Below are positions 708-22,430 of a stretch of DNA of 22,430 nucleotides, one piece after another. The position numbers and the translations under genes are program-made. Where the stretch lies: IMG/VR virus record IMGVR_UViG_3300045733_000128, positions 1 to 22,430 of that record. One strand, given 5' to 3'. Each line of letters starts with the position of its first letter. Position 1 is the first letter of the stretch. Origin of the DNA: a virus. Under the pieces are notes generated by a model. That model was not told where the DNA came from. It saw only the letters and a program-made list of their open reading frames with translations, and made no database searches.

Positions 708-1215
708 AGGTTGACATGGTAAGCAGTTGTTTAACTACTTGGAATTGTTAGGCTTTCTCGTCTTCTGTTTTATCTTCCTCAGCTTCCTCAGCTTCCTCAG
801 TGGATGCAGGAGTTGCTTTCTTAATCATTTCTTGGAGATATGCAACTTGCTCCACTGGAGTCATAGAGGCCAGTTTCGCTACCATAGCGACTTCTGGGTC
901 TATCTGAGTTTTTGACGCTGGAGCGGAGAATTGGATCTCGACCACTTGCCCTGCCTTGTATGTGTCGAAGTTCTTGCGCCCAACTCCGTTTTGCCAGGCG
1001 ATAACCGCTCCGCTCACAGCCTTGTCGAAAACAGATTGCAGAGTCGTCCCGTCAAACTTGACTTTCAAGTTGATATTTTTCTTGACGGTCGAGTCTTCAT
1101 CGGCGCGTATGGAGCACACTTTAGACAACGTCACGTTTGCAATGACTTCGGTCATGTTTATCATGGTAGGTTTTCCCCTTTCATATTGGGAGGTTAGGTC
1201 CTACCATGTCAACCT
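708..1215. repeat. 14-bp inverted repeat flanking the leftward gene (arms 708-721 and 1202-1215)
   Basis: AGGTTGACATGGTA at 708-721 occurs as its exact reverse complement at 1202-1215. The two arms bracket the gene at 748-1164, one in its leader and one between its stop and its terminator. Each arm contains TTGACA. The role is unknown; a paired operator or the boundary of an inserted cassette are possibilities. Confidence 0.65.
748..1164 (-). CDS. Hypothetical phage protein with acidic C-terminal tail
   Basis: A 138-residue protein. The first 75 or so residues alternate hydrophobic and polar positions, suggesting beta strands (VTLSKVCSIRA, INLKVKFDG, VVEIQFSAPAS). A helical segment follows at about 90-115, then a strongly acidic tail (EEAEEAEEDKTEDEKA). 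A small beta domain with an acidic tail is the layout of phage single-stranded-DNA-binding proteins, but no sequence motif settles this, so the function stays open. I chose the ATG at 1162-1164 because an AAGGGG ribosome-binding site lies 10 bases upstream; the in-frame ATG at 1153-1155 would be too far from it. The gene is monocistronic, with its own promoter (1259-1286) and terminator (671-699). Its G+C is above that of most neighbours (32 of 60 bases at 841-900). Confidence 0.8.
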   Translation of the reverse strand: MINMTEVIANVTLSKVCSIRADEDSTVKKNINLKVKFDGTTLQSVFDKAVSGAVIAWQNGVGRKNFDTYKAGQVVEIQFSAPASKTQIDPEVAMVAKLASMTPVEQVAYLQEMIKKATPASTEEAEEAEEDKTEDEKA

Positions 1216-1640: not shown

Positions 1641-2315
1641 ATGAAACGGATGGTACATTTTATGGAAGGTGTTCAGACAAGATCAGATCTCTACGGCTTC
1701 GACTATCGAGAGACAGACTTACGTCGAGTCTCTGAGGGAGAAGAGAAGAAGACCTACAATATCAAGGCCCTCTGGCAGCGCTCTCATGAGATTATTAATC
1801 TCGCTGCGAGAGGCTATAAGTATACAGACATTGCAGAAATCCTTGGTATCACTCCAGCTTGTGTCTCTCTCACTTTAAATAGTGATCTTGGCCAGAAAAA
1901 ATTATCAGAAATTCGTCTCGTTCGAGATGAGGACGCGAAAAAAACTTCAGAAAAAATTAGAGTATTAACCGCTAAAGCAATCCAAACTTACCACGAGATC
2001 TTTGATAATGAATATGGACAAGCAACTCTTCGTGATAGGAAGGATGTGGCTGATACTGTATTGTTAGAATTGAGTGGCTTAAGGGCGCCTACAAAGATCC
2101 ATACATCCTCAGTCTCCACAATTCTCACCGCTGAAGAAATAGAAGCATTCAAGAATAGGGGAATCAGTGCAGCTAAGCAGTCAGGCTTCATTGATATTAC
2201 TGAGCAACCGAGTACTGAGCGTGAGTGTAAGGATCAGCCCATCGAGGCCCTTTCCGCAGAATCTATTACCACTATTATCGAGGAAATCAATGGACCTGAC
2301 CAAGCGACAGCTTGA
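1641..2315 (+). CDS. Terminase small subunit-like HTH DNA-binding protein
   Basis: A 224-residue protein. Residues about 48-90 form a helix-turn-helix (EIINLAARGYKYTDIAEILG, then ITPACVSLTLNS). A long helical region follows to about 150 (RDEDAKKTSEKIRVLTAKAI onwards), then a polar tail. This layout recurs in phage TerS-like proteins, which bind the packaging site and recruit the large subunit; the assignment rests on pattern and on its place at the head of the structural region. TerL lies 5.7 kb downstream instead of adjacent, which is unusual. The start is uncertain: ATGs at 1641, 1650 and 1662 are in frame and none has a strong ribosome-binding site. An alternative reading is a general HTH regulator. 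Confidence 0.6.
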   Translation: MKRMVHFMEGVQTRSDLYGFDYRETDLRRVSEGEEKKTYNIKALWQRSHEIINLAARGYKYTDIAEILGITPACVSLTLNSDLGQKKLSEIRLVRDEDAKKTSEKIRVLTAKAIQTYHEIFDNEYGQATLRDRKDVADTVLLELSGLRAPTKIHTSSVSTILTAEEIEAFKNRGISAAKQSGFIDITEQPSTERECKDQPIEALSAESITTIIEEINGPDQATA

Positions 2316-3976: not shown

Positions 3977-6079
3977 ATGAAAACTCTAATCTTAGCACTT
4001 TACCCCTATCAAGGAAAAGGCCTTGACTCCTGGCATGACCACGGTGCTGGGATGACTGTAGCTGCTGCTCAAAAGGCTGGCTGCCAGGTAGACTTCTACG
4101 ATATGAAAAGGGCTAAGACTGATGAAGAGATGGTGATGGTTATTAAAGGGTATGATTTGATAGCCTTTGGTCTGAAGAGTTCCTACTACCCTCTCGGAAT
4201 GAAGATAATTAAGATGGCCAAAGATCAAGGTTCTAAAGTAATGGTTGGAGGCTACCATGTTACCGCTGCTTCCAGCGAATTACTTGAGAATCCTGACATT
4301 GACTATGTCTTCCATGGTGAGAGTGAGATCACATTTCCTAAGTTCTTAGCTAATCCCTCAAGTTTTGATAGGGAAATCTTTGGTGAGAAGCCTGAGGCTC
4401 TCGATGGTCTCCCTTGGTTCGACCGAGGGATGTATAAATCTCCTCTCGAAGACTGCAAAGGTTGGTGGTATGGTGGAAGACTTGCCAAAATGATCTCTGT
4501 TGTATCAGCTAGAGGCTGCCCTTATCAATGCGGCTTCTGCCAACCAATAGAAGATAATCACTTTGGAAAGGTTCTTCGAAGGAGATCTGTAGATTCTCTC
4601 ATCGCTGAGTTGAAATGGCTCAAAGACCTCTATCATCCTGAGTGTGTAATGATTCATGATGATACTTTCTTGATTCAACCTAAATGGATAGAGGAATTCA
4701 TTGAGAAATACCCCCAAATAGGCCTTCCTTTTTGGGCTGCTGGGAGGGCTGATGGTATTTGTAAGCACTCAGCTCTGGTTGAACGCTTAGTTAAGGTCGG
4801 CTGGGACTTGATCTCAGTAGGCTTCGAATCAGGCTCACAGAAGATCCTTGATAAAATGAAGAAAGGAACAACTGTAGAGCAGAATTTTGAGGCTGCAAAG
4901 ATCATCCATAGTACGAAGGCTAAGATATACGCCAACTATATGATCGGCCTACCTTGGGAAACTAAGGAAGATATGCAAGCGACTGCTTTAATGGCAGATG
5001 TGATCAAGGCTGAGATGCCCTCCTGGGCTTTCTTCGCTCCTTATCCTGGTAGTGCACTTGGTGAGGAGTGTATAGCCAATGACCTATCTCTTATAGATAG
5101 GACTTCTTACGATCGCTGCCCTCATGGACGTAAAGTTCAAGGTGTAAACTATACTTATGTCAATGCAGTTCTTGCTGGACTTAGGGGAGACAAGGAATTA
5201 GCCGACCACTTCCAGTGTGATATAATTATCCCTACCTACAATAATGAAGATCATACAGTCGAGTGTTTGAATAGCATTAAAAAGTACACTTCCTCAATAG
5301 ACTATAGGGTTATCTGGGTAGATAATGCCTCTAATGACACGTCAAAAGTTGAAAAAGTAATCTCTAAAATGCCCTTCCTTCGCATCGACATGCCTAAGAA
5401 TGAGGGCTTTGTTAGTGCAGTGAATAAGGGAATTAAGGCCTCGAATGCTGACTACATATGCCTCTTAAATAATGACACTGTTGTATCAGATAGATGGCTT
5501 GAGAAACTAATTAATTCTCTTAAGAAGAATCCCAAACTTGGTATTGTTGGCCCTATGACTATGCCCCTTAAAGGTGACAGGGTATATGATTCTCAGCATA
5601 ATCTCACTCTTCATCCTTACTTAATGCCTATTGATCATAGTCTAAATCTTGAGCAGATTAATAAGGTCTTAGAATTTTACTACCCTGAGCAATTAATAGA
5701 CATTACCTTTGTAGCATTCTTCTGTGCTGTGATTAAGATAGAGGTAGTTAATAAAGTAGGTCTGTTAGATACAAACTTTCAATTAGGAATGTGGGATGAT
5801 AATGACTATTGCATCGCAGCACGTAAATTTGGCTATGATGTGAAGTTGCTCACTGATACTTGTATTCAGCATAAGGGAAGGACGACATTCAAACTTCTTC
5901 AGGATACAGAAGGATTCAACATTACAGAATTAATGGCTAAGAATAAAGACTACTTAAATAAGAAGTGGAGATTGAATACTATTCAACGATCTGCTATGGC
6001 ATTACCATCTAGGCCATCTGAATTACAGTTCAATGTAAAACAGACTAGCTGGCGTGATAAGATAGGAGTGGCTCAATAG
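3977..6079 (+). CDS. B12-binding-like radical SAM / family 2 glycosyltransferase fusion
   Basis: A 700-residue protein with three parts. Residues 1 to about 130 resemble the Rossmann domain that precedes many radical SAM enzymes (KVMVGGYHVTA, then DYVFHGESE); a canonical B12-ligand motif is not clear. Residues about 170-385 form a radical SAM domain with the cluster motif CPYQCGFC (C181, C185, C188), which binds a 4Fe-4S cluster and S-adenosylmethionine. From about 412 to 650 there is a family 2 glycosyltransferase with DIIIPTYNN at the nucleotide-binding strand and NNDT (498-501) in place of the DxD metal site. The two activities in one chain suggest a modified-sugar or glycan-tailoring step, perhaps on host surface or virion glycans; the substrate is unknown. 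The ATG directly follows a palindromic element with no Shine-Dalgarno. Confidence 0.85.
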   Translation: MKTLILALYPYQGKGLDSWHDHGAGMTVAAAQKAGCQVDFYDMKRAKTDEEMVMVIKGYDLIAFGLKSSYYPLGMKIIKMAKDQGSKVMVGGYHVTAASSELLENPDIDYVFHGESEITFPKFLANPSSFDREIFGEKPEALDGLPWFDRGMYKSPLEDCKGWWYGGRLAKMISVVSARGCPYQCGFCQPIEDNHFGKVLRRRSVDSLIAELKWLKDLYHPECVMIHDDTFLIQPKWIEEFIEKYPQIGLPFWAAGRADGICKHSALVERLVKVGWDLISVGFESGSQKILDKMKKGTTVEQNFEAAKIIHSTKAKIYANYMIGLPWETKEDMQATALMADVIKAEMPSWAFFAPYPGSALGEECIANDLSLIDRTSYDRCPHGRKVQGVNYTYVNAVLAGLRGDKELADHFQCDIIIPTYNNEDHTVECLNSIKKYTSSIDYRVIWVDNASNDTSKVEKVISKMPFLRIDMPKNEGFVSAVNKGIKASNADYICLLNNDTVVSDRWLEKLINSLKKNPKLGIVGPMTMPLKGDRVYDSQHNLTLHPYLMPIDHSLNLEQINKVLEFYYPEQLIDITFVAFFCAVIKIEVVNKVGLLDTNFQLGMWDDNDYCIAARKFGYDVKLLTDTCIQHKGRTTFKLLQDTEGFNITELMAKNKDYLNKKWRLNTIQRSAMALPSRPSELQFNVKQTSWRDKIGVAQ

Positions 6080-6102
6080 TCCGTTTAATGATTAAACAAA
6101 CT
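6079..6102 (+). promoter_or_regulatory. Palindromic element, copy 5
   Basis: 21 of 23 consensus positions; the inner 15-bp core is a perfect palindrome. It overlaps the last base of the upstream stop codon and precedes a GGAG ribosome-binding site and the ATG at 6117. Confidence 0.8.
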
Positions 6103-6116
6103 TTTGGAGTAATACT

Positions 6117-7973
6117 ATGAAAACATTAAAGATATTTCTCTTCTCACTGATGCTGTTTCTTACACTCTCAACAGGTGTAAAGGCTGAGTTCTTCAAAGAC
6201 ATCATTGTTACAGGGCCTAGTGGTATCTGGACTGACGCTAGAGCATATTCCACTCTTAATGCAGCAATTACTGCTGTAGGGGCTAATCAGCGTACAGTGG
6301 TAATTGCTAGTCCTCAGACGGTCGCTGCTTTAACTGTTCCAGCCAATATCACTCTTAAATTTGAGAGGGATGGAGCAATAGTTAATTCCGGCCAGTTAAC
6401 AATTAATGGAGATGTTATTGCAGGACTTCATACAATATTCTCCGGTGCTGGAGCAGTAACACTTTCTGCAGTTGAGAATATCTATCCTGCCTGGTGGGGA
6501 CTGTCTGAGGTAGCAATAGGATCAGTTAATTCAGCCGCTATTCAAGCAGCAATAGTGGCTGCCTCAGTCCCTTCAACATCTCAAAATTACCCTCTCCATC
6601 CTGGTGCTAAGGTCATGCTTCATAGGGGCACGTTTGCAGTCGCTCCTGATATAATTAGTTTTACTGGTAGGAGGGGAGTAACCCTTTCAGGTGTAAGTAG
6701 TGGTTATGGATATATAGATACGAATTCAGGAACTATCCTCAAATTCTCTACTGGCTCTATTGGCATTAATATGTATCAGGCTGCTAATTCTGACCAGTCT
6801 GGAAATAATAAAGTATCTAACCTTACAATAGATGGTAGTGCTGTCCTAACAACAGGCATAAAAGTAACCTTCAATCAAATATTAGAAGACATCGGTGTAA
6901 CTCATTGTAAGGACTATGGCATCTGGCTTGCTGATGGGACTAACTCGACAGTATTAAATCGAGTAAGTGCTATGTCTAATACAACAGGTCTTGGGTATGG
7001 ACTATATGTAAGTGGTCCAATGACAACTATATTCACTGTCAAGGATTCAAACTTTCGAATAAATAAAGTAGGTATAAGATTAGAATGTTTCTCTAATCCA
7101 CTATTCCAAAATGTTGTTTCAGAGTCAAATACAGCTGAAGGCTTATACATATATAGGGCTTATGATGGAGCTGTAACATCTGGAGGCTTTGGTAATGGAG
7201 CTGTTTTTGATGGCATATGGCTGGAGAATAATTACCTCGGTGGCTCAGGTTATGGGTTAGTTATAGATGGAGTAACTCGTAATAATGGTCAGGGAGTACC
7301 ACAAGGGCTGGAGTTTAATAGAGGTAATATTACAGTAACTGGAGTAGCTAAACACTTAAATATACTTGGTGCTGTCGGAGTTAAGTTTAAGGATATGACT
7401 ATAGCTGGAGGAGCAGCTGGTGAGATAGCTCTTAATACAGATAGAGCAAGGTATATTGTATTTGAAGGGTGTACTTTAGCATCTTTTGCTGGAGGGAACT
7501 ACGGTTATCGAGGTGGTGCAGTTGGAAAAGTATTGACTGGGACTCTATATAATTCAGATCTTGGGTTAGGAATAGCAGATGATGGACAGTTCCTTGTTCC
7601 AGTAACAACCTTAACTACAGCAACACCGACTACTATAGCGTCCTTTGATTCCAACACTTCTACTTACAACATAGCTGGCTTTGTCGATCTAATGGTCTAT
7701 GATAAGGTTGCAACTACAGGAAAATATATCTTATATAGAGTAGCCTTTGGATCAAACTGGGGATTACAAAATACAGTCGGAGTTTTTAGTAATACAAGCA
7801 CAAGTACTTGGTCTGTTGATATTATAAGTTCTCATATAGGATCTAATGCAGTGGGATTAGCATTAACATTTAATGTAGTCGGTTCTGCTTCACAGTTTTA
7901 CTTATCTGTAACACAGAGTAGTGGAGCGACTGCATATATTAAGGGAGTTGGAACTGTATTCCACGCAAGATAG
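6117..7973 (+). CDS. Exported parallel beta-helix (tailspike/pectate-lyase-like) protein
   Basis: A 618-residue protein. Residues 1-23 look like a Sec signal peptide: Lys early, then FLFSLMLFLTL, then GVKA before a predicted cut. The mature part has the YPAWWG motif (about 124-129) common in phage and bacterial beta-helix proteins, then an AAIQAAI helix cap, and repeated short strands (VTLSGV, ILKFS, VSNLTIDG, GIKVTF) typical of a right-handed beta-helix. A C-terminal jelly-roll-like domain follows from about 490. Such folds bind or cleave polysaccharides in tailspikes. A signal peptide is not expected of a virion spike, since virions assemble in the cytoplasm, so the protein may be secreted by infected cells. 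No catalytic residues are assigned. GGAG precedes the start. Confidence 0.75.
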   Translation: MKTLKIFLFSLMLFLTLSTGVKAEFFKDIIVTGPSGIWTDARAYSTLNAAITAVGANQRTVVIASPQTVAALTVPANITLKFERDGAIVNSGQLTINGDVIAGLHTIFSGAGAVTLSAVENIYPAWWGLSEVAIGSVNSAAIQAAIVAASVPSTSQNYPLHPGAKVMLHRGTFAVAPDIISFTGRRGVTLSGVSSGYGYIDTNSGTILKFSTGSIGINMYQAANSDQSGNNKVSNLTIDGSAVLTTGIKVTFNQILEDIGVTHCKDYGIWLADGTNSTVLNRVSAMSNTTGLGYGLYVSGPMTTIFTVKDSNFRINKVGIRLECFSNPLFQNVVSESNTAEGLYIYRAYDGAVTSGGFGNGAVFDGIWLENNYLGGSGYGLVIDGVTRNNGQGVPQGLEFNRGNITVTGVAKHLNILGAVGVKFKDMTIAGGAAGEIALNTDRARYIVFEGCTLASFAGGNYGYRGGAVGKVLTGTLYNSDLGLGIADDGQFLVPVTTLTTATPTTIASFDSNTSTYNIAGFVDLMVYDKVATTGKYILYRVAFGSNWGLQNTVGVFSNTSTSTWSVDIISSHIGSNAVGLALTFNVVGSASQFYLSVTQSSGATAYIKGVGTVFHAR

Positions 7974-8013: not shown

Positions 8014-9558
8014 ATGGAACAAGAGATCAAACAAATTTTATCTCAATGCAGCATCTCAACAAGGATGACTGCATTGACCTTCTTCCCTGATCGCTTCTAC
8101 ATGCCTTTTGCTGAAGAAGTCCATGGGAAGATATTTGATCTACTTGATGGTCCTGATCAGAAGGTAGCTATAGCAGCCCCTCGTGGGTATGGGAAGACCT
8201 CTATTGTTGCTCTTGCTCTTATAGCTAGGTGGATCTTATTCCATCATACAGGATTTGTTGTCTACATTAACAAGAGTCATGATGCTGCATCACTACAGAC
8301 CGAGAACCTTCGTCGTGAGCTAGTTACCAATAAAGAGATAAGGGCGTTCTTTGGTAACTTCAAACAGAGGGATCCTGACAAGGCTGAGTTTGATGAGGTA
8401 TTTAGTAAGAAGGCTTGGGTCGCCTATAATACTTTGGTCTGGCCAAGGGGAGCTGGTCAGCAGGTTCGTGGTGTCCTATTCAAGAATGATCGACCTGGCC
8501 TAATTGTCATAGATGATCTTGAAGACCCTGAACTTGTTCAGACTGAGGAATATAGAGATAGACAATACCAGTGGCTCTATGCTGATGTGATTAAAGCTGT
8601 TCCAAGAATAGGGCCTTTTGCTAAGAGTTGGAAGATTGTCTATATAGATACACTTAAGCATGAAGCATCTGTTTTGCAGAAGTTACTTGATTCACCTGAG
8701 TGGGCCTCTATACGACTTGAAGCTTGTGATGATAACTTTAAATCAACAGCTCCTGGTTTTATCTCAGATGAAGATATAATGAAGGAATGGGAACAGCATG
8801 TGGCGGCTGGACAGACAGATGTCTTCTTTCGCGAGCTACGTAATCTCCCAATCTCAACAAAGGACTCTGCATTCAGAACTGAGTACTTCCACTATTACAA
8901 TCTACCTCCTGATAGAGGGAAGAGAGAAGGTGATCTTGATCTCATAGATATGGATGTGCAGAAGAATCAGAATATTGAGACAGTAGTCATTCTTGATCCT
9001 GCCAAAACAGTCAAGATTCACTCAGCTGAATCAGCTATAGTTGGAATAGGTATTGATCTTGCCTCAGCAAAGGTCTACATTAGAGATGTCATTTCAGAGA
9101 AGATGTACCCTGATGAGATCTACAACGCTATGTTTGGAATGGCTCAGATGCTAGGTGCAAAAGTACTAGGAATTGAGGAGACGTCCCTTAATGAGTTTAT
9201 CAAGCAGCCGATCAAGAATGAGATGTTTAGACGTGGTTCGTTCTTTGAACTAATCTGGCTTAAGGCTAGAGGTGGGATGAAGAAGGAACACCGAGTGAAG
9301 GAACTTGTTCCTTATTATAGGGGTGGTTATATCTACCACAATGCTTCTTGTGCAGGGATTAGGAAACTTGAGCAACAGTTGTTAATGTTTCCTAGGTCTG
9401 CCCTGTGGGACATAATGGATGCTGAAGCCTATCTCATTGAAATGCTTGAACTTGGTGAGAGGTACTTTAGCCCACCTGAGATGGATACAAAGGATGATGA
9501 GGCTGAGTATAAAGAGCTTAAATATGAGAAAACTATAGAAGATTGGAGATATGTATAA
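8014..9558 (+). CDS. terL: Terminase large subunit (packaging ATPase-nuclease)
   Basis: A 514-residue protein of usual TerL length. The ATPase domain has a P-loop APRGYGKT (residues 55-62) and Walker B LIVIDDLED (163-171). The RNaseH-like nuclease domain begins near residue 320 with ETVVILDPAKT (D328 as first acidic residue), then GIEET (about 389-393) and a final acidic residue in DIMDAEAY. Together these motifs identify the motor that translocates DNA into the procapsid and cuts it at the start or end of packaging. It works with the portal (10965-12929) and presumably the TerS-like protein at 1641. AAGGA precedes the ATG. The stop overlaps the next start as TAATG. Confidence 0.92.
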   Translation: MEQEIKQILSQCSISTRMTALTFFPDRFYMPFAEEVHGKIFDLLDGPDQKVAIAAPRGYGKTSIVALALIARWILFHHTGFVVYINKSHDAASLQTENLRRELVTNKEIRAFFGNFKQRDPDKAEFDEVFSKKAWVAYNTLVWPRGAGQQVRGVLFKNDRPGLIVIDDLEDPELVQTEEYRDRQYQWLYADVIKAVPRIGPFAKSWKIVYIDTLKHEASVLQKLLDSPEWASIRLEACDDNFKSTAPGFISDEDIMKEWEQHVAAGQTDVFFRELRNLPISTKDSAFRTEYFHYYNLPPDRGKREGDLDLIDMDVQKNQNIETVVILDPAKTVKIHSAESAIVGIGIDLASAKVYIRDVISEKMYPDEIYNAMFGMAQMLGAKVLGIEETSLNEFIKQPIKNEMFRRGSFFELIWLKARGGMKKEHRVKELVPYYRGGYIYHNASCAGIRKLEQQLLMFPRSALWDIMDAEAYLIEMLELGERYFSPPEMDTKDDEAEYKELKYEKTIEDWRYV

Positions 9559-10964: not shown

Positions 10965-12929
10965 ATGCCATACATAGTAATGGGAGAACCTAGCAGTTGG
11001 AAGGATGAAGTTTATAAGAAAGACTATGGATATAAATATCCTAAAGGTCTCGATCTTCGTCCTGATAGTAAACTCCATCAGAAGTTACGTTCTAAGATCT
11101 GGGAACGGGCTAGGTTATCAAGAGATGAAATTTCTAAGCGATTTGATTCTTGGCGTACGACTGATAAGACGTTGACTACTTATATTGATTTGTCAGGGAC
11201 TGATAAGGGAACTAAGGAAGATGATATAAGAGTAAAGGATAGCACTAAGCCCTTAACGATAGTCTTCCCTTATAGCTACTCAATGCTTGAGGCCCTATTA
11301 ACTTATTTATCTATGGCCTTCTTCCAAGATCCTATGTTCCAGTATGAAGGTGTCGAGGATGATGATACAGTAGGTGCAATGCTGATGGAACTAGTGATTC
11401 GTCTTCACTGTATCAAGAATAAAGTTCCCTTAGCAATTCATACAGTTCTTCGAGATTCACTTGCTTATGGAGTGGGAGTTGGAATCCCAGGATGGCATCG
11501 TCAGTTTGGGAAGAAGTTGATCAAGGCATCTGTGACTACTGAATCGTCTTTAGGGACAGAGACTCAAAACATGAATCAGTTTGTCTCTTCCCTACTCTTT
11601 GAAGGTAATGATCTATCCAACATAGATCCCTATATGTGGCTGCCTGATCCTTCTGTATCAAGTGTGAATATTCAGAAGGGCGAATTCATAGGATGGATTG
11701 ATAGAGATAGCTATGTTAATCTACTTAGTGAAGAAGGTCAGGCTGATTCAGGTCTTTTCAATGTAAAGTATTTGAAGGAGAAGAAGAACAAGCGTTCAAC
11801 CTTTGCACTTGATGAGAGTCAACGGAATGCTAAGCATGGAGGGTCTTCTGATTCGATTAGATATTCTTCAAGTGTTCTTTCTCCAGTTGATAGACTTCAT
11901 ATGTATATTACTCTCATTCCAAAAGAGTGGCAATTATCTAAAAGTGAAGTGCCTGAGAAATGGTACTTTGAATTGGCCGGAGATGATGTAATTATAGCTT
12001 GTGAGAAAGCAGACCATAATCATGGACAGTATCCAATGGCAGTTGCATCACCTGAGTATGATGGATACTCAATTACTCCTATAGGTCGGATGGAAGTGTT
12101 ACAAGGTCTTCAGCATACTCTTGATTTCCTCTTCAATAGCCATGTAGCTAATGTGAGGAAGGCTATCAATGATATGTTTGTAGTTGATCCTTACTTAGTC
12201 AATATCAATGACTTGAAAGATCCACAGCCTGGCAAACTCATTCGATTGAGAAGGCCTGCTTGGGGAAGAGGGGTTACAAATGTAGTTCAGCAGCTTCAGG
12301 TCTCTGATATAACAAGAATGAATATTAGTGACTCGGCCTACATTACTCAGTGGATGGATAGAATATCAGGGGCTGATCAATCTATGCAGGGTGCCCTGAG
12401 AATGTCAGGGCCTGAGAGATTAACTGGAGCTGAGTTTAGTGGGACTAGGAGCTCAGCAGTCTCCAGATTACAGCGAATTGCTATGATCATAGGTATGCAA
12501 TTCATGCAGGATGTGGGAACACAGTTTGCTGTCCACACTCAACAATATATGACTCAGGACGCCTTCATAAATGTTGAGGGTAGGTATGCTGAGCAGTTGA
12601 TGAAGAACTTCACCAATGGAAAAACAAGGGGAAGAGTTAGTCCAGCAGACTTGGCCATAGGATATGATTTAATTGTAAGAGATGGATCAATCCCAGGTGG
12701 AAACTTCTCTCAATCATGGATTGAGTTGTTTAAGACTATAGGGACAAACCCTGAACTGAGTCAACAGTTTGATGTCGCTCGTATCTTTACATATATAGCT
12801 CAGCAGTTAGGGGCAAAGAATGTTGAGGACTTTAGACGTAACATAGGTAGGATCCGGACTCAAACAATGCCTGATCAACAAGTAGCTGATCAAGTGCAGG
12901 CAGGAAACCTCATTCCGACGGGAGCTTAA
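10965..12929 (+). CDS. Portal protein
   Basis: A 654-residue protein, mostly alpha-helical, of podovirus-portal length. The segments IVFPYSYSMLEALLTYLSMA (residues about 97-116), VLRDSLAYGVGVG and the later HTLDFLFNSHVANVRKAIND have the alternation seen in portal wing and stem regions. The assignment rests on size, helical pattern and position between TerL and a scaffold/capsid pair, since portal sequences diverge quickly. The protein would form the dodecameric ring at one capsid vertex through which TerL pumps DNA. GGAG lies upstream of the ATG. The next gene starts one base after its stop. Confidence 0.8.
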   Translation: MPYIVMGEPSSWKDEVYKKDYGYKYPKGLDLRPDSKLHQKLRSKIWERARLSRDEISKRFDSWRTTDKTLTTYIDLSGTDKGTKEDDIRVKDSTKPLTIVFPYSYSMLEALLTYLSMAFFQDPMFQYEGVEDDDTVGAMLMELVIRLHCIKNKVPLAIHTVLRDSLAYGVGVGIPGWHRQFGKKLIKASVTTESSLGTETQNMNQFVSSLLFEGNDLSNIDPYMWLPDPSVSSVNIQKGEFIGWIDRDSYVNLLSEEGQADSGLFNVKYLKEKKNKRSTFALDESQRNAKHGGSSDSIRYSSSVLSPVDRLHMYITLIPKEWQLSKSEVPEKWYFELAGDDVIIACEKADHNHGQYPMAVASPEYDGYSITPIGRMEVLQGLQHTLDFLFNSHVANVRKAINDMFVVDPYLVNINDLKDPQPGKLIRLRRPAWGRGVTNVVQQLQVSDITRMNISDSAYITQWMDRISGADQSMQGALRMSGPERLTGAEFSGTRSSAVSRLQRIAMIIGMQFMQDVGTQFAVHTQQYMTQDAFINVEGRYAEQLMKNFTNGKTRGRVSPADLAIGYDLIVRDGSIPGGNFSQSWIELFKTIGTNPELSQQFDVARIFTYIAQQLGAKNVEDFRRNIGRIRTQTMPDQQVADQVQAGNLIPTGA

Positions 12930-15001: not shown

Positions 15002-16312
15002 ATGTTTCTTGGTATGAGAGGTACGGGTGACTGGGTTAATGGTCAGCGCCCTATGAATTGGAGGGAACAGATCATGTATCTGTATCCCAATGGGCAGGCT
15101 CCTTTGACCGCCATCTTGTCAATGATGGGGTCTGAGGTTGTGGACGATCCTCAGTTTCATTGGTGGACTCAGGAACAAACAGCTGTTGGTGGAGCTGTTG
15201 CTGGCGTCTTCACTCTTCCTGATCTGTCTGCTGCATATGTAGCTGGTGGAGTAATTGCAGATGTGGTCTATGTTCAGATCACTACGTTGCTTGCTAATCG
15301 TATCAGAGAAGGTCACCAGATCCTTCTTCGCGACTCTAGCGATTACAGAGTCGATGTGGTTGGTAAGGTCACAGGTGTAGCGAGAGGGACTATCGTCTCC
15401 GTGTTGGCTGTGAAGCTGCTCGAAAACGACGATAACTCTCCTGGAGTTGGTGGTCATGATCTGTCAGACTGCGACACGTTCAAGATCATCGGTAACATTA
15501 ATCCTGAGGGTGGCGAGATGCCTGATGCCATCGCTCTTAATCCTGTGAAGGTTTATAACCTTACTCAGATCTTCAGAACTTCCTTGTCAATGACTCGGAC
15601 AGCTCTCAAGACCAAACTGAGGACTCCTGAACAACGCCAGAAGGCTAAGTCCGAAGCGTTGGAAATGCACTCCTGGGAAATGGAACTTGCATTCCTTTGG
15701 GGGATCAGGACCGAGAACATCGGAGATAACGGAAAGCCTGAACGTACTACGATGGGAGTGATCAACTTCATTCGGCAGTATGCAGCGGCTAACTGTAGTG
15801 ACTATACACTTGATCCGACCTACACAGGCCAGGATTGGGATGTAGGTGGAGAGACCTGGCTCAATACTATGCTTGAGCAGATCTTCCGCTATGGTTCTTC
15901 AGAGAAACTGGTTCTCTGTGGTTCTGGGTTCTTAATGGGACTTAATGACCTGGCTGTCTCTGGCAGCGTTATGACCTTGGTTCCTGGTGCTAAGACCTAC
16001 GGGATGGAGATTCGTCAGTGGATGACTCCCTTTGGAGTTATCAATATGAAGACTCATCCCCTCTTCAGTTACGACGCGACTACGCGTAACATGGGAGTGA
16101 TTATCGAGCCTAAGGAACTTAGCTATCGTTACATTGACGATACTACGTTCTATGGTGAGGATTCAAAGAAGACTCACTCTGAGGGCTATGGTCAGCGAAG
16201 AGTGGATGGCCTGGTTGAGGAGTACTTGACTGAAGCCGGTCTTGAGTTTGGGTTGGCTCAGAAATGTGGCATCCTGAACGGTGTCGGCTTGGACAATAAC
16301 CTGGTCCCCTAA
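15002..16312 (+). CDS. Major capsid protein (DUF5309/SU10-like)
   Basis: A 436-residue protein. The N-terminal segment (MNWREQIMYLYPNGQAPLTA), a beta-rich middle (ITTLLANRIREGHQILLRDS), the helix SALSMTRTALK-like region (about 197-205), and HSWEMELAFLWGIR (residues 223-236) match the pattern of DUF5309-type HK97-fold major capsid proteins, where an E-M-E-x-A-F-x-x-G segment is characteristic. It would form the icosahedral shell around the scaffold. Context fits: scaffold upstream, a strong terminator hairpin downstream, its own palindromic element and a GGAGG site, as expected for the most abundant virion protein. G+C and codon use are raised relative to neighbours. Confidence 0.85.
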   Translation: MFLGMRGTGDWVNGQRPMNWREQIMYLYPNGQAPLTAILSMMGSEVVDDPQFHWWTQEQTAVGGAVAGVFTLPDLSAAYVAGGVIADVVYVQITTLLANRIREGHQILLRDSSDYRVDVVGKVTGVARGTIVSVLAVKLLENDDNSPGVGGHDLSDCDTFKIIGNINPEGGEMPDAIALNPVKVYNLTQIFRTSLSMTRTALKTKLRTPEQRQKAKSEALEMHSWEMELAFLWGIRTENIGDNGKPERTTMGVINFIRQYAAANCSDYTLDPTYTGQDWDVGGETWLNTMLEQIFRYGSSEKLVLCGSGFLMGLNDLAVSGSVMTLVPGAKTYGMEIRQWMTPFGVINMKTHPLFSYDATTRNMGVIIEPKELSYRYIDDTTFYGEDSKKTHSEGYGQRRVDGLVEEYLTEAGLEFGLAQKCGILNGVGLDNNLVP

Positions 16313-16382: not shown

Positions 16383-16406
16383 GTCCATTTAACAATTAAA
16401 CGATCT
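16383..16406 (+). promoter_or_regulatory. Palindromic element, copy 10 (after the terminator)
   Basis: 18 of 23 consensus positions. It sits directly after the hairpin terminator and right before a GGAGGTG site, which suits restart of transcription for the downstream block. Confidence 0.65.
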
Positions 16407-16417
16407 TGGAGGTGAGT

Positions 16418-16780
16418 ATGAAACGATTAGGATTTTATATAGTAGCTATTATGTTGTTGGCTGTATCTTTTGTGTCAGCTGGAACAGTCTCTAGGAATTA
16501 TCAAAGTCTAACTACTGCCACTGTGGTATCTATAGACTCTGCATTCACTACAGCAGGTGGTGTAAGAGCACAACAACTTCTTGCAACAGTTGAGACTGCT
16601 GCTATTAGGTATACAGTTAATGGAGCGACTCCGACTACAACTGCTGGTGGAGCAGTAGGTCATCTTGTTCAGTCTGGTTCTATTATCATAGTCGATTCAT
16701 GGTCAGATATCGTACACTTCAAATGTATCAATGCGGTTGCTGGGAGCGGAGCAGTTGTAAAAGTAACTATTGGTTATTAG
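16418..16780 (+). CDS. Exported small beta-sandwich protein
   Basis: A 120-residue protein. Residues 1-21 form a clear signal peptide (MKRLGFYIVAIMLLAVSFVS, then A before a predicted cut). The mature part of about 99 residues has TVETAAIRYTVNGATPTTTAGGAVGHL-type composition: the segments TAAIRYTVNG, TPTTTAGG and GHLVQSG match a small beta domain that recurs in phage structural proteins (I-R-Y-x-x-D/N-G-x-x-P-T, then G-H). I recognise the pattern but cannot name a family entry. The start is the ATG at 16418 with GGAGGTG just before it; an upstream TTG at 16406 is in frame but would spoil the signal peptide. A virion-type domain with a Sec signal is unusual. Confidence 0.75.
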   Translation: MKRLGFYIVAIMLLAVSFVSAGTVSRNYQSLTTATVVSIDSAFTTAGGVRAQQLLATVETAAIRYTVNGATPTTTAGGAVGHLVQSGSIIIVDSWSDIVHFKCINAVAGSGAVVKVTIGY

Positions 16781-16793
16781 TTGAGGTAAGACA

Positions 16794-17711
16794 ATGAAGA
16801 AGCTATTTTTACTATTATTGGTACTATTGCTGCCTAGTTCAAGTTGGGCAGGGTCAAATATAATTTGCCAGACAGGATATGGAACTGATATGAAAGGGTT
16901 TTATAGACCCTTTATGGTATATGACTGTCTTGAGATAGAGACAATCACCTACCATGATCTAAGGATTTCCGAAGCCAATCCCATGACAGAGGCGCAGACA
17001 GCCGCTCTCGATGCCAACATCAAGACTATCAAGTATGGTGCTGGTATCACTTTGTCGTCTTTAACTTTGAATATTAGTGGCACGACAAGCGGTGCAGTCC
17101 CTTCCTTTATCAGCAACCCCTCCGTTGATTTGCGCCCCTACGTCGGCTTCAAGGTGAGTATCGCCGCTGGTGGAAAGACGTTGGTGGGCTGGATCAAGGC
17201 GGCGGGGAGTGGGGAAACATTATCCGCAACAGAAAAATGGCTTAATGGTAATTTCTCATCAGATGAACCTCCAGGTACTGCTTGGGTAAGAGGTGCGGGG
17301 TTCGTTATAACGGGTGGACAGTTGGTAGGTACTACAGCCCCTGTCGCTAATACTTATGCAACTATTGCTGCAACTACCGGCGCTCTGTATAAGACGAGCG
17401 CCGATTTCGTTATCACAACAGGAACAATTCGCTTCACACCTGCGAGTGGCGGCATTGGTAAAGAGCTTTCTGGAACAGGGGCATACTCAGTCTATGGTAC
17501 AGCTATAACGGGATTTCCTTCTCCGGGATTCCGCGTACTCACAACTTTTACAGGGACAATAGACAACGCCTCGACCAAGCAAGTCCTCACCCCCAGCACC
17601 AACGGCGCAACCATCGTCTCCACCCAAGGCGGCGCAACGTATAACTGGACTTCGGACGGTGGAATTGTCCCGAACAGCGCCAGTTACACCATGACGGTTA
17701 CGAGGAATTAG
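16794..17711 (+). CDS. Exported hypothetical protein with G+C patchwork
   Basis: A 305-residue protein. Residues 1-19 are a textbook signal peptide (MKKLFLLLLVLLLPSSSWA). The mature part has NIICQTGYGTDMKGFYRPFM with two Cys (C25 and C44), then Thr/Ser/Gly-rich beta strands; GKTLVGWIKAAGSGETLS (around residues 127-144) resembles a ligand-binding beta-domain segment seen in bacterial and phage proteins. The C-terminus is Ig-like or carbohydrate-binding-like in composition. G+C varies inside the gene: 22 of 60 at 16801-16860, 38 of 60 at 17161-17220, 24 of 60 at 17221-17280 and 39 of 60 at 17581-17640, which suggests domain-level mosaicism. GAGGTA lies before the ATG. Function is not known. Confidence 0.75.
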   Translation: MKKLFLLLLVLLLPSSSWAGSNIICQTGYGTDMKGFYRPFMVYDCLEIETITYHDLRISEANPMTEAQTAALDANIKTIKYGAGITLSSLTLNISGTTSGAVPSFISNPSVDLRPYVGFKVSIAAGGKTLVGWIKAAGSGETLSATEKWLNGNFSSDEPPGTAWVRGAGFVITGGQLVGTTAPVANTYATIAATTGALYKTSADFVITTGTIRFTPASGGIGKELSGTGAYSVYGTAITGFPSPGFRVLTTFTGTIDNASTKQVLTPSTNGATIVSTQGGATYNWTSDGGIVPNSASYTMTVTRN

Positions 17712-21262: not shown

Positions 21263-22430
21263 ATGGGAGGTTCTGGTGGTGGAGCGTCAGGTGCTGTATC
21301 TCATTCAGTATATTTAGAGTGGGTTCATACTGATTGGTTAGATCATAATCATGCTGAGTCTATATCAGATTCTATAACTTCTGTTATGAGCTCTGCATTA
21401 GGTAATTCTCCTTGGACTAGTCTATCTGCTTATGATCCAGATGCTGATATAGCAGCATATGAAGCTGAGTTAGCAGTCTTTGCAGCGATACTGGCAGGAC
21501 TCGCTGATACCACAGACTGGGCAGCTTTACAGGTTCAAGCTCTTGCAACAATTGGAGTGCCTGTTGCAGTCTCAATATCTGATATTGTAGTAGATGGTAT
21601 TGTAATAGAAGATATTGAGGAGTTAGAAGATATTGTAATAGGTGATATCACAGAGCCAGCTGATATTGCGGTAGCTGATGCTGTTGCTCCAGCTGATATT
21701 GTATTGGCTGATAAAGCGGCTCCAGCTAATATTGTAATAGCTGATGCTGTTGCAGTTCCAGATACCCCCTTAATTACAGACGCAGAGATAATAGTTGATA
21801 CAGCCGCACTAGCCGACCAGATTGATGATGAGATAACAGCTAAAATTCTTCCTCGTTTTAGACGTGGGATGCAAGATATTAATGCAGTTGTTTCTTCTGC
21901 CTTTCCGATTGGAGAGGCTATCATTGAAGCTTTCAGAGATAGAGAAGTTGCAAAGCATGCTTCAACTCAGCGAGTTAATTTAGTGAACAGAAACTCTGAG
22001 ATTGGCATTGCTAATAGGAGTAAGGATAGTCAGATTAGTCTAGCTAATGTTAGTAAGAATACACAAGTTGGAATATCCAATCTTAATAAAGATGTTGAGA
22101 TTGTTAAGATCAATCTTGATAAAGATGTTAGTATTAAGGAAGCTAATCTTAATAAAGCTGTTGAGATTGTTAAGGTTAATCTTGGTAAGAGTATCAGTAT
22201 TGCTGGAGTTAATCTTGATAAATCTATTAAAATTATCCTAGCTAATCTTAGTAAAGATATTGAGGTAGGTAGTCTTAATCTTGGCAAAATATCTGATATT
22301 CTTAAGGCTAACCTTGCTAAGTCAGTTGAAATAGCTAAGACTAACATGACAAAGAATTTAGCAGTGGCAGATTTAAATACTAGGACAGCTAGTGATTATA
22401 AAAAGATGTATTTAGATGGTACAGGACAGA
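21263..22430 (+). CDS. Repeat-rich virion-type protein, partial (runs off right edge)
   Basis: An open frame of 389 codons from ATG 21263 to the window edge, with a GGGGG site upstream. The first 90 residues contain GGSGGGASGAV and a helical region. Residues about 105-185 are Ala/Asp/Ile/Val-rich with 11-residue spacing (PADIAVADAVA, PANIVIADAVA). After a helical link (about 190-235) come at least 12 consecutive 11-residue units (251-382) with pattern N-h-x-K-x-h-x-h-x-x-h, for example NLNKDVEIVKI. Eleven-residue periodicity suits a hendecad coiled coil or another elongated fold. The position after nozzle and GNAT-like genes suggests a tail-tip, ejected or internal virion protein. No family is recognised. 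Confidence 0.8.
   Translation, partial: MGGSGGGASGAVSHSVYLEWVHTDWLDHNHAESISDSITSVMSSALGNSPWTSLSAYDPDADIAAYEAELAVFAAILAGLADTTDWAALQVQALATIGVPVAVSISDIVVDGIVIEDIEELEDIVIGDITEPADIAVADAVAPADIVLADKAAPANIVIADAVAVPDTPLITDAEIIVDTAALADQIDDEITAKILPRFRRGMQDINAVVSSAFPIGEAIIEAFRDREVAKHASTQRVNLVNRNSEIGIANRSKDSQISLANVSKNTQVGISNLNKDVEIVKINLDKDVSIKEANLNKAVEIVKVNLGKSISIAGVNLDKSIKIILANLSKDIEVGSLNLGKISDILKANLAKSVEIAKTNMTKNLAVADLNTRTASDYKKMYLDGTGQ
22013..22408 (+). repeat. In-frame 33-bp coding repeats encoding hendecads
   Basis: Twelve consecutive units of 33 bases encode residues 251-382 of the partial protein. Most begin with AAT or AAC (Asn), then a codon for Leu, Val or Met, and have Lys at position 4. DNA identity between units is only moderate, while the amino-acid pattern is strict, so selection acts on the protein. 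Confidence 0.8.

Follow-up and report, generated by a model that had tools for sequence, protein, structure and literature searches.

A phage-encoded fusion of a B12-type radical SAM domain and a family 2 glycosyltransferase, a candidate enzyme for two-step glycan tailoring

In hopanoid cyclitol-ether synthesis, the glycosyltransferase HpnI attaches a sugar, which the radical SAM enzyme HpnJ then rewrites (PMC12583986). Radical SAM enzymes that act on sugars are also described for the aminoglycosides, and include the diol-dehydratase AprD4 and the B12 radical SAM methylases GenK and GenD1 (PMC5461906). Phage glycosyltransferases are usually read as modifiers of the host surface (PMC7824862; PMC7029224), and mycobacteriophages add sugars to the capsid and tail proteins of their own particles (work cited in PMC12363180). 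None of these capsid glycosyltransferases, nor TarP or the GtrB-like enzymes, was found described as a radical SAM fusion (PMC12363180). Pelagimyophages carry hypervariable host-recognition clusters in which glycosyltransferases and radical SAM cassettes accompany tail genes (PMC7029224). Phage glycosyltransferases, phage radical SAM genes and partnerships between the two enzymes are already known separately. The single-chain, order-swapped phage pair described here adds a new variation on these; no report of such a fusion was found in the open-access literature, a coverage outside which most subscription papers lie.

The fusion is encoded in the window, a 22,430-nucleotide stretch of viral DNA (IMG/VR record IMGVR_UViG_3300045733_000128), by an uninterrupted frame with an ATG start (3977–6079, plus strand, as for all its domains below). 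The original prediction had described one 700-residue chain with a B12-type Rossmann domain, a radical SAM domain and a family 2 glycosyltransferase (GT2) domain, and each of these scored above its Pfam cutoff. The B12-binding-type domain spans residues 18–123 (4028–4345; PF02310, 47.0 bits against a cutoff of 32.1), with W19, D21-H22-G23, S68-S69, G92 and H94 invariant in the homologue alignment. The radical SAM core follows at residues 176–337 (4502–4987; PF04055, 61.3 bits against 29.5) and is matched by fold; the predicted [4Fe-4S]-binding motif CPYQCGFC (4517–4540), of the CX3CX2C type and with C181, C185 and C188 as foreseen, is invariant in 19 of 19 homologues. This motif and the partial TIM barrel place the domain in the radical SAM superfamily. 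After an interdomain linker at residues 374–412 (5096–5212), where model confidence is lower and pN/pS exceeds that of the domains in most comparisons, the GT2 domain occupies residues 411–668 (5207–5980). It is supported by PF00535 (Glycos_transf_2; residues 416–591, 85.1 bits against 23.3), by alignment and by fold matches, and has the GT-A fold with an Asp motif and a catalytic Asp. The predicted NNDT motif lies at 498–501 and is invariant, as are D607, D608, D610 and H632. The only hydrophobic stretch of the fusion, residues 572–590, lies inside the core of this domain.

Counting the window itself, 14 non-redundant IMG/VR contigs encode the whole chain in this domain order (L039, a duplicate of L037, was left out of the count). 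The junction between the halves is therefore not an assembly artefact, the first of the two grounds on which the original prediction might have failed. Full-length homologues in the other contigs are 58–79% identical and under purifying selection. In contig L002, from another metagenome, the fusion is 77% identical end to end and holds the same position between the terminase genes. Compared with L002, dN/dS is estimated at 0.08 (radical SAM half) and 0.04 (GT2 half); compared with L005, the estimates are 0.12 and 0.17, respectively. All of these are rough because synonymous sites are near saturation. The last 30 or so residues are far less constrained (0.65 against L002).

An AlphaFold model built with only six sequences had a pLDDT of 50.3, and a 22-sequence model (pLDDT 83.2, pTM 0.63) was used. 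Confidence in the latter is low at residues 374–385 (pLDDT below 50) and beyond residue 668; the low-confidence linker in the model suggests that the domains are tethered rather than joined by a fixed channel. Fold matches of the radical SAM half are AprD4, MgmA, MiaB, TsrM, OxsB, CysS and TokK, with AprD4 at the top (E 3.8e-17, TM-score by target length 0.68), and those of the glycosyltransferase half are AvpGT, TarP and GalNAc-T2. By sequence alone, the fusion gave only partial matches in the PDB. A search of predicted viral structures with the whole chain gave no good match (best TM-score by query length 0.43).

Comparison with the described systems brings out both likenesses and differences. 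Among NCBIfam models, HpnJ matches the phage radical SAM half best (E 2.8e-33), but the identity itself was rejected, with 115.5 bits against an equivalog cutoff of 577.6 for TIGR03471. In the HpnI/HpnK/HpnJ pathway the genes are separate and cellular, with a deacetylase step in between, whereas the phage version is one chain; no hopanoid genes were seen in the phage cassettes. AprD4, the top fold match, likewise acts on sugars; however, it is only 17% identical and is a stand-alone enzyme of an antibiotic pathway, working with the reductase AprD3. TarP resembles the GT2 half in fold and is a glycosyltransferase of phage origin (PMC12363180). The pelagimyophage clusters are likewise variable islands, but belong to SAR11 myophages, and a radical SAM–GT2 fusion was not found described in PMC7029224. 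In Streptomyces phage SF3, a B12-binding/radical SAM protein is 25.4% identical over 44% of the query; its gene is unfused, with neighbours annotated as thymidylate kinase and NUDIX hydrolase.

A DxHxxG motif with a His ligand marks class B radical SAM enzymes, although known members do not all use this His. The N-terminal B12-binding domain of that class is present in the fusion, by PF02310 and by the fold matches to OxsB, TsrM, CysS and TokK. The DxHxxG motif is not kept, position 18 being S or A; at the lower-ligand position 20, the 19 homologues have His (nine), Leu (four) or Ile (six). Judged from the sequence, cobalamin use by the radical SAM half is likely yet unproven, because H20 is kept in nine of 19 but the class B His is not universal.

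The association of the two enzymes extends beyond the fusion. Among 20 distinct contigs holding this radical SAM domain, 19 have an orthologous GT2: 14 as radical SAM–GT2 fusions, one as the reverse GT2–radical SAM fusion (L016, 797 aa) and four (L011, L012, L013 and L014) as separate genes, the GT2 gene lying upstream of an adjacent or nearby radical SAM gene (L015 is a truncated near-copy of L014). This sample was partly gathered by GT2 searches, and searches with the radical SAM domain only gave the same pairing. The complete GT2 genes beside stand-alone radical SAM genes are orthologues of the fused domain, scoring 348–375 bits against a half profile built from six fused proteins that themselves score 431–486 bits. 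The fused phages have the terminase large subunit (TerL) or the terminase-small-like gene of the window in common, and the stretches fetched for the split and reversed cases held no TerL of the window type, terminase-small-like gene or beta-helix gene. The pair is thus both split and reverse-fused in unrelated phages, a stronger link than the original prediction had claimed. The exception is one contig pair, L133/L134, in which a radical SAM protein of 60% identity sits in an aminosugar cassette beside a DegT aminotransferase, a formyltransferase, two other GT2s and a methyltransferase; the orthologous GT2 is absent throughout these 47.9-kb and 27-kb records. In six members (L020, L028, L032, L033, L034 and L037) a third domain extends the chain to 930–965 aa, and in the two that were scored, L028 and L032, it is rhamnosyltransferase-like (PF11316). 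Trees built for the two halves are partly congruent (Mantel r 0.52, p 0.0002) and partly at odds: L011/L013 group with the window for the GT2 half, but not for the radical SAM half; fusion, fission or exchange has therefore happened more than once.

In the window, the fusion lies in a slot bordered at the 5' side by a terminase-small-subunit-like gene (1641–2315, plus strand; phrog_2538, E 0.0031), which has an orthologue in each of the 13 other contigs with the fusion, and at the 3' side by TerL (8014–9558, plus strand; phrog_38, E 8.6e-60), which is 67–84% identical among the fusion-bearing contigs that hold it. The next gene downstream of the fusion encodes a beta-helix protein (6117–7973, plus strand; PF13229, 24.4 bits, just under the cutoff of 25.9), and the portal (10965–12929) and major head protein (15002–16312) genes lie further on. 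The predicted setting, a structural region with a secreted beta-helix neighbour and a lysis-type cassette, stands as regards the first two; the lysis-type label is shown only in part, because the transglycosylase-like ORF at 2167–2682 has an SLT score of 21.0 bits, just under the cutoff of 21.3. A small gene upstream of the terminase genes (748–1164, minus strand) is conserved, with orthologue-like ORFs in L002, L004, L005 and L020. At 21535–22347, low-complexity ORFs overlap on both strands, which suggests repetitive sequence at the contig end. The closest named TerL, 46% identical, is that of Desulfofustis phage MD01, which lacks both fusion domains. The host of that phage was predicted from CRISPR spacers (PMC10370329).

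A census of the slot was made with a TerL scan, in which the best 80 of 161 relatives included 54 contigs with both slot borders. Within these 54, the fusion is present in 11, a different GT2 of about 340 aa in 27 and at least one of the two in 34; the fusion is accordingly accessory, missing from 43. Among 37 slot ORFs from fusion-free phages, picked by eye for a glycan-enzyme look, 18 match PF00535 and others are methyltransferases, epimerases or PF11316 proteins. The census and these matches indicate a variable island of glycan enzymes in the slot between the two terminase genes, and the window holds its most reduced form, the fusion alone. Other fusion-bearing islands add a sulfotransferase (PF03567, 23.5 bits, above the cutoff of 22) and an APS kinase (72.8 bits), both in L037. 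At 5352–6764 of that contig, the sulfotransferase, a second conserved P-loop gene (SGPQRSGTR) and the short APS kinase gene lie directly upstream of the fusion, a trio that suggests phage-encoded glycan sulfation; sequence searches of the PDB with profiles of the sulfotransferase and P-loop proteins gave no convincing match. Overall, the glycan partners of the pair are methyltransferases, the sulfotransferase and APS kinase, GT2 and GT9 glycosyltransferases, PF11316 proteins, a DegT aminotransferase, a formyltransferase and epimerases. In every case the pair sits with packaging or head genes, or else in the interval that separates lysis genes from TerL. Separately, a distant B12/radical SAM relative (36%) at 6708–8669 of L138, in a cassette with a GHMP kinase, a HAD phosphatase and glycosyltransferases, has an intein-like domain (PF14890, 45.9 bits) inserted just before and into its radical SAM core.

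The two halves probably act on one glycan. In the scheme that we infer for the catalysis, cobalamin use, sugar substrate and acceptor of the fusion, the GT2 half would transfer a sugar from a nucleotide donor onto an acceptor, and the radical SAM half, probably with cobalamin, would carry out a radical reaction on that sugar, such as C-methylation, deoxygenation or skeletal rearrangement; the two steps could run either way round. The fusion would join two enzymes that are habitual partners through a flexible tether, and would be one of the interchangeable components of a glycan-enzyme island among the late genes of tailed phages. Sugar tailoring coupled to transfer, as originally proposed, gains from the three gene arrangements, from the partners encoded nearby taken together with the HpnI/HpnJ and aminoglycoside precedents (PMC12583986; PMC5461906), and from the fact that AprD4 and HpnJ, the best fold and best NCBIfam matches, are both sugar-acting. 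The most likely acceptor would be a virion surface protein, changed so as to alter recognition of the particle. A cytoplasmic acceptor of this kind is favoured because the enzymes look soluble, lie in late modules and are accompanied by no flippase or membrane glycosyltransferase. The full two-step reading with a virion protein as acceptor is nevertheless tentative, and the lack of the DxHxxG-type motif, the L133/L134 radical SAM protein without its paired GT2 and the accessory nature of the fusion count against it.

A close rival acceptor is the host envelope. The same chemistry could be aimed at LPS, O-chain or another surface glycan, blocking other phages or re-adsorption to debris, which is possible, if rather less than an even prospect. 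PHROG labels the GT2 half GtrB-like (E 7.6e-12), the prophage glycosyltransferase TarP is a fold match, and export is predicted for the adjoining beta-helix protein as well. Glycosyltransferase-rich islands beside tail genes have been read in this way in pelagimyophages (PMC7029224) and jumbo phages (PMC7824862). However, superinfection exclusion would come late from a packaging-module position, and inspection of the island enzymes revealed no membrane flippase, ligase or polyprenyl-phosphate glycosyltransferase. GtrB works with membrane partners, and GtrABC includes the flippase GtrA and the membrane-anchored polyprenyl-phosphate glycosyltransferase GtrB. Such partners were not seen in the phage island, and O-antigen conversion of the GtrABC type was rejected, there being no multi-helix membrane flippase or glycosyltransferase gene among its enzymes.

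It is unlikely that the glycan is instead placed on the adjoining beta-helix protein as a secreted or surface glycoprotein that is not part of the virion. The beta-helix gene directly follows the fusion in eight contigs (the window, L002, L004, L005, L028, L033, L034 and L037), and the signal-peptide-like N-terminus is found throughout. Its N-terminal region was present in 30 of the 54 slot-complete contigs (best 80 of 161 TerL relatives), but 24 of these 30 genes occur without the fusion, and L006, L007, L010, L030 and L032 have the fusion without a beta-helix neighbour. The signal-peptide-like start, kept in all 30 carriers, is odd for a virion protein of a tailed phage. Orthologues of the protein occur in L002, L005, L020, L037 and others, and in the window the structural-region proteins at 16406–16780 and 16794–17711 have similar starts.

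Hypermodification of phage DNA bases by the two enzymes is very unlikely. Phages do glycosylate DNA, the region adjoins packaging genes and a glycosyltransferase in L012 has a weak TAGT match (E 0.049), but the gene content of the 52-kb relative G003 (L005) argues against it: the 42 ORFs scanned gave only an N4/N6 methylase and a dCMP deaminase, and no base-hydroxymethylating or thymidylate-synthase-like genes were among the families listed (25 of 34). The aminosugar, sulfation and methylation partners also fit a protein- or lipid-linked glycan better. Chance or regulatory joining of two domains with unrelated substrates would accommodate the L133/L134 lineage and the partial agreement of the half trees, but is highly improbable, since unrelated phages have the pair fused in both orders and as separate genes next to or near each other.

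A housekeeping role for the same fusion in host genomes, the other ground for doubt, found no support, as no cellular homologue of the same level was detected, although the cellular search was weak. The scan of cellular genomes was near-empty, its patterns fitting close relatives only; 198 genomes of one phylum held one unfused relative (146 bits) with no glycosyltransferase nearby, and the best plasmid relatives were 26–27% identical.

Radical SAM enzymes seldom figure in accounts of how phages modify glycans. The occurrence of the pair in fused, split and reverse-fused form is strong genetic evidence of a shared substrate, and the fusion therefore offers, in a single protein, a convenient system in which to discover an unknown sugar reaction. 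More speculatively, and doubtful as a whole, it may represent a phage-specific class in which one polypeptide both transfers a sugar and, through a radical reaction, rewrites its carbon skeleton on the virion surface, giving non-host sugars, with the active-site pair swapped between unrelated phages as a cassette. The fusion marks a phage lineage whose inter-terminase slot is a glycan-diversity hotspot, which would make the choice between decoration of the virion and of the host surface directly testable.
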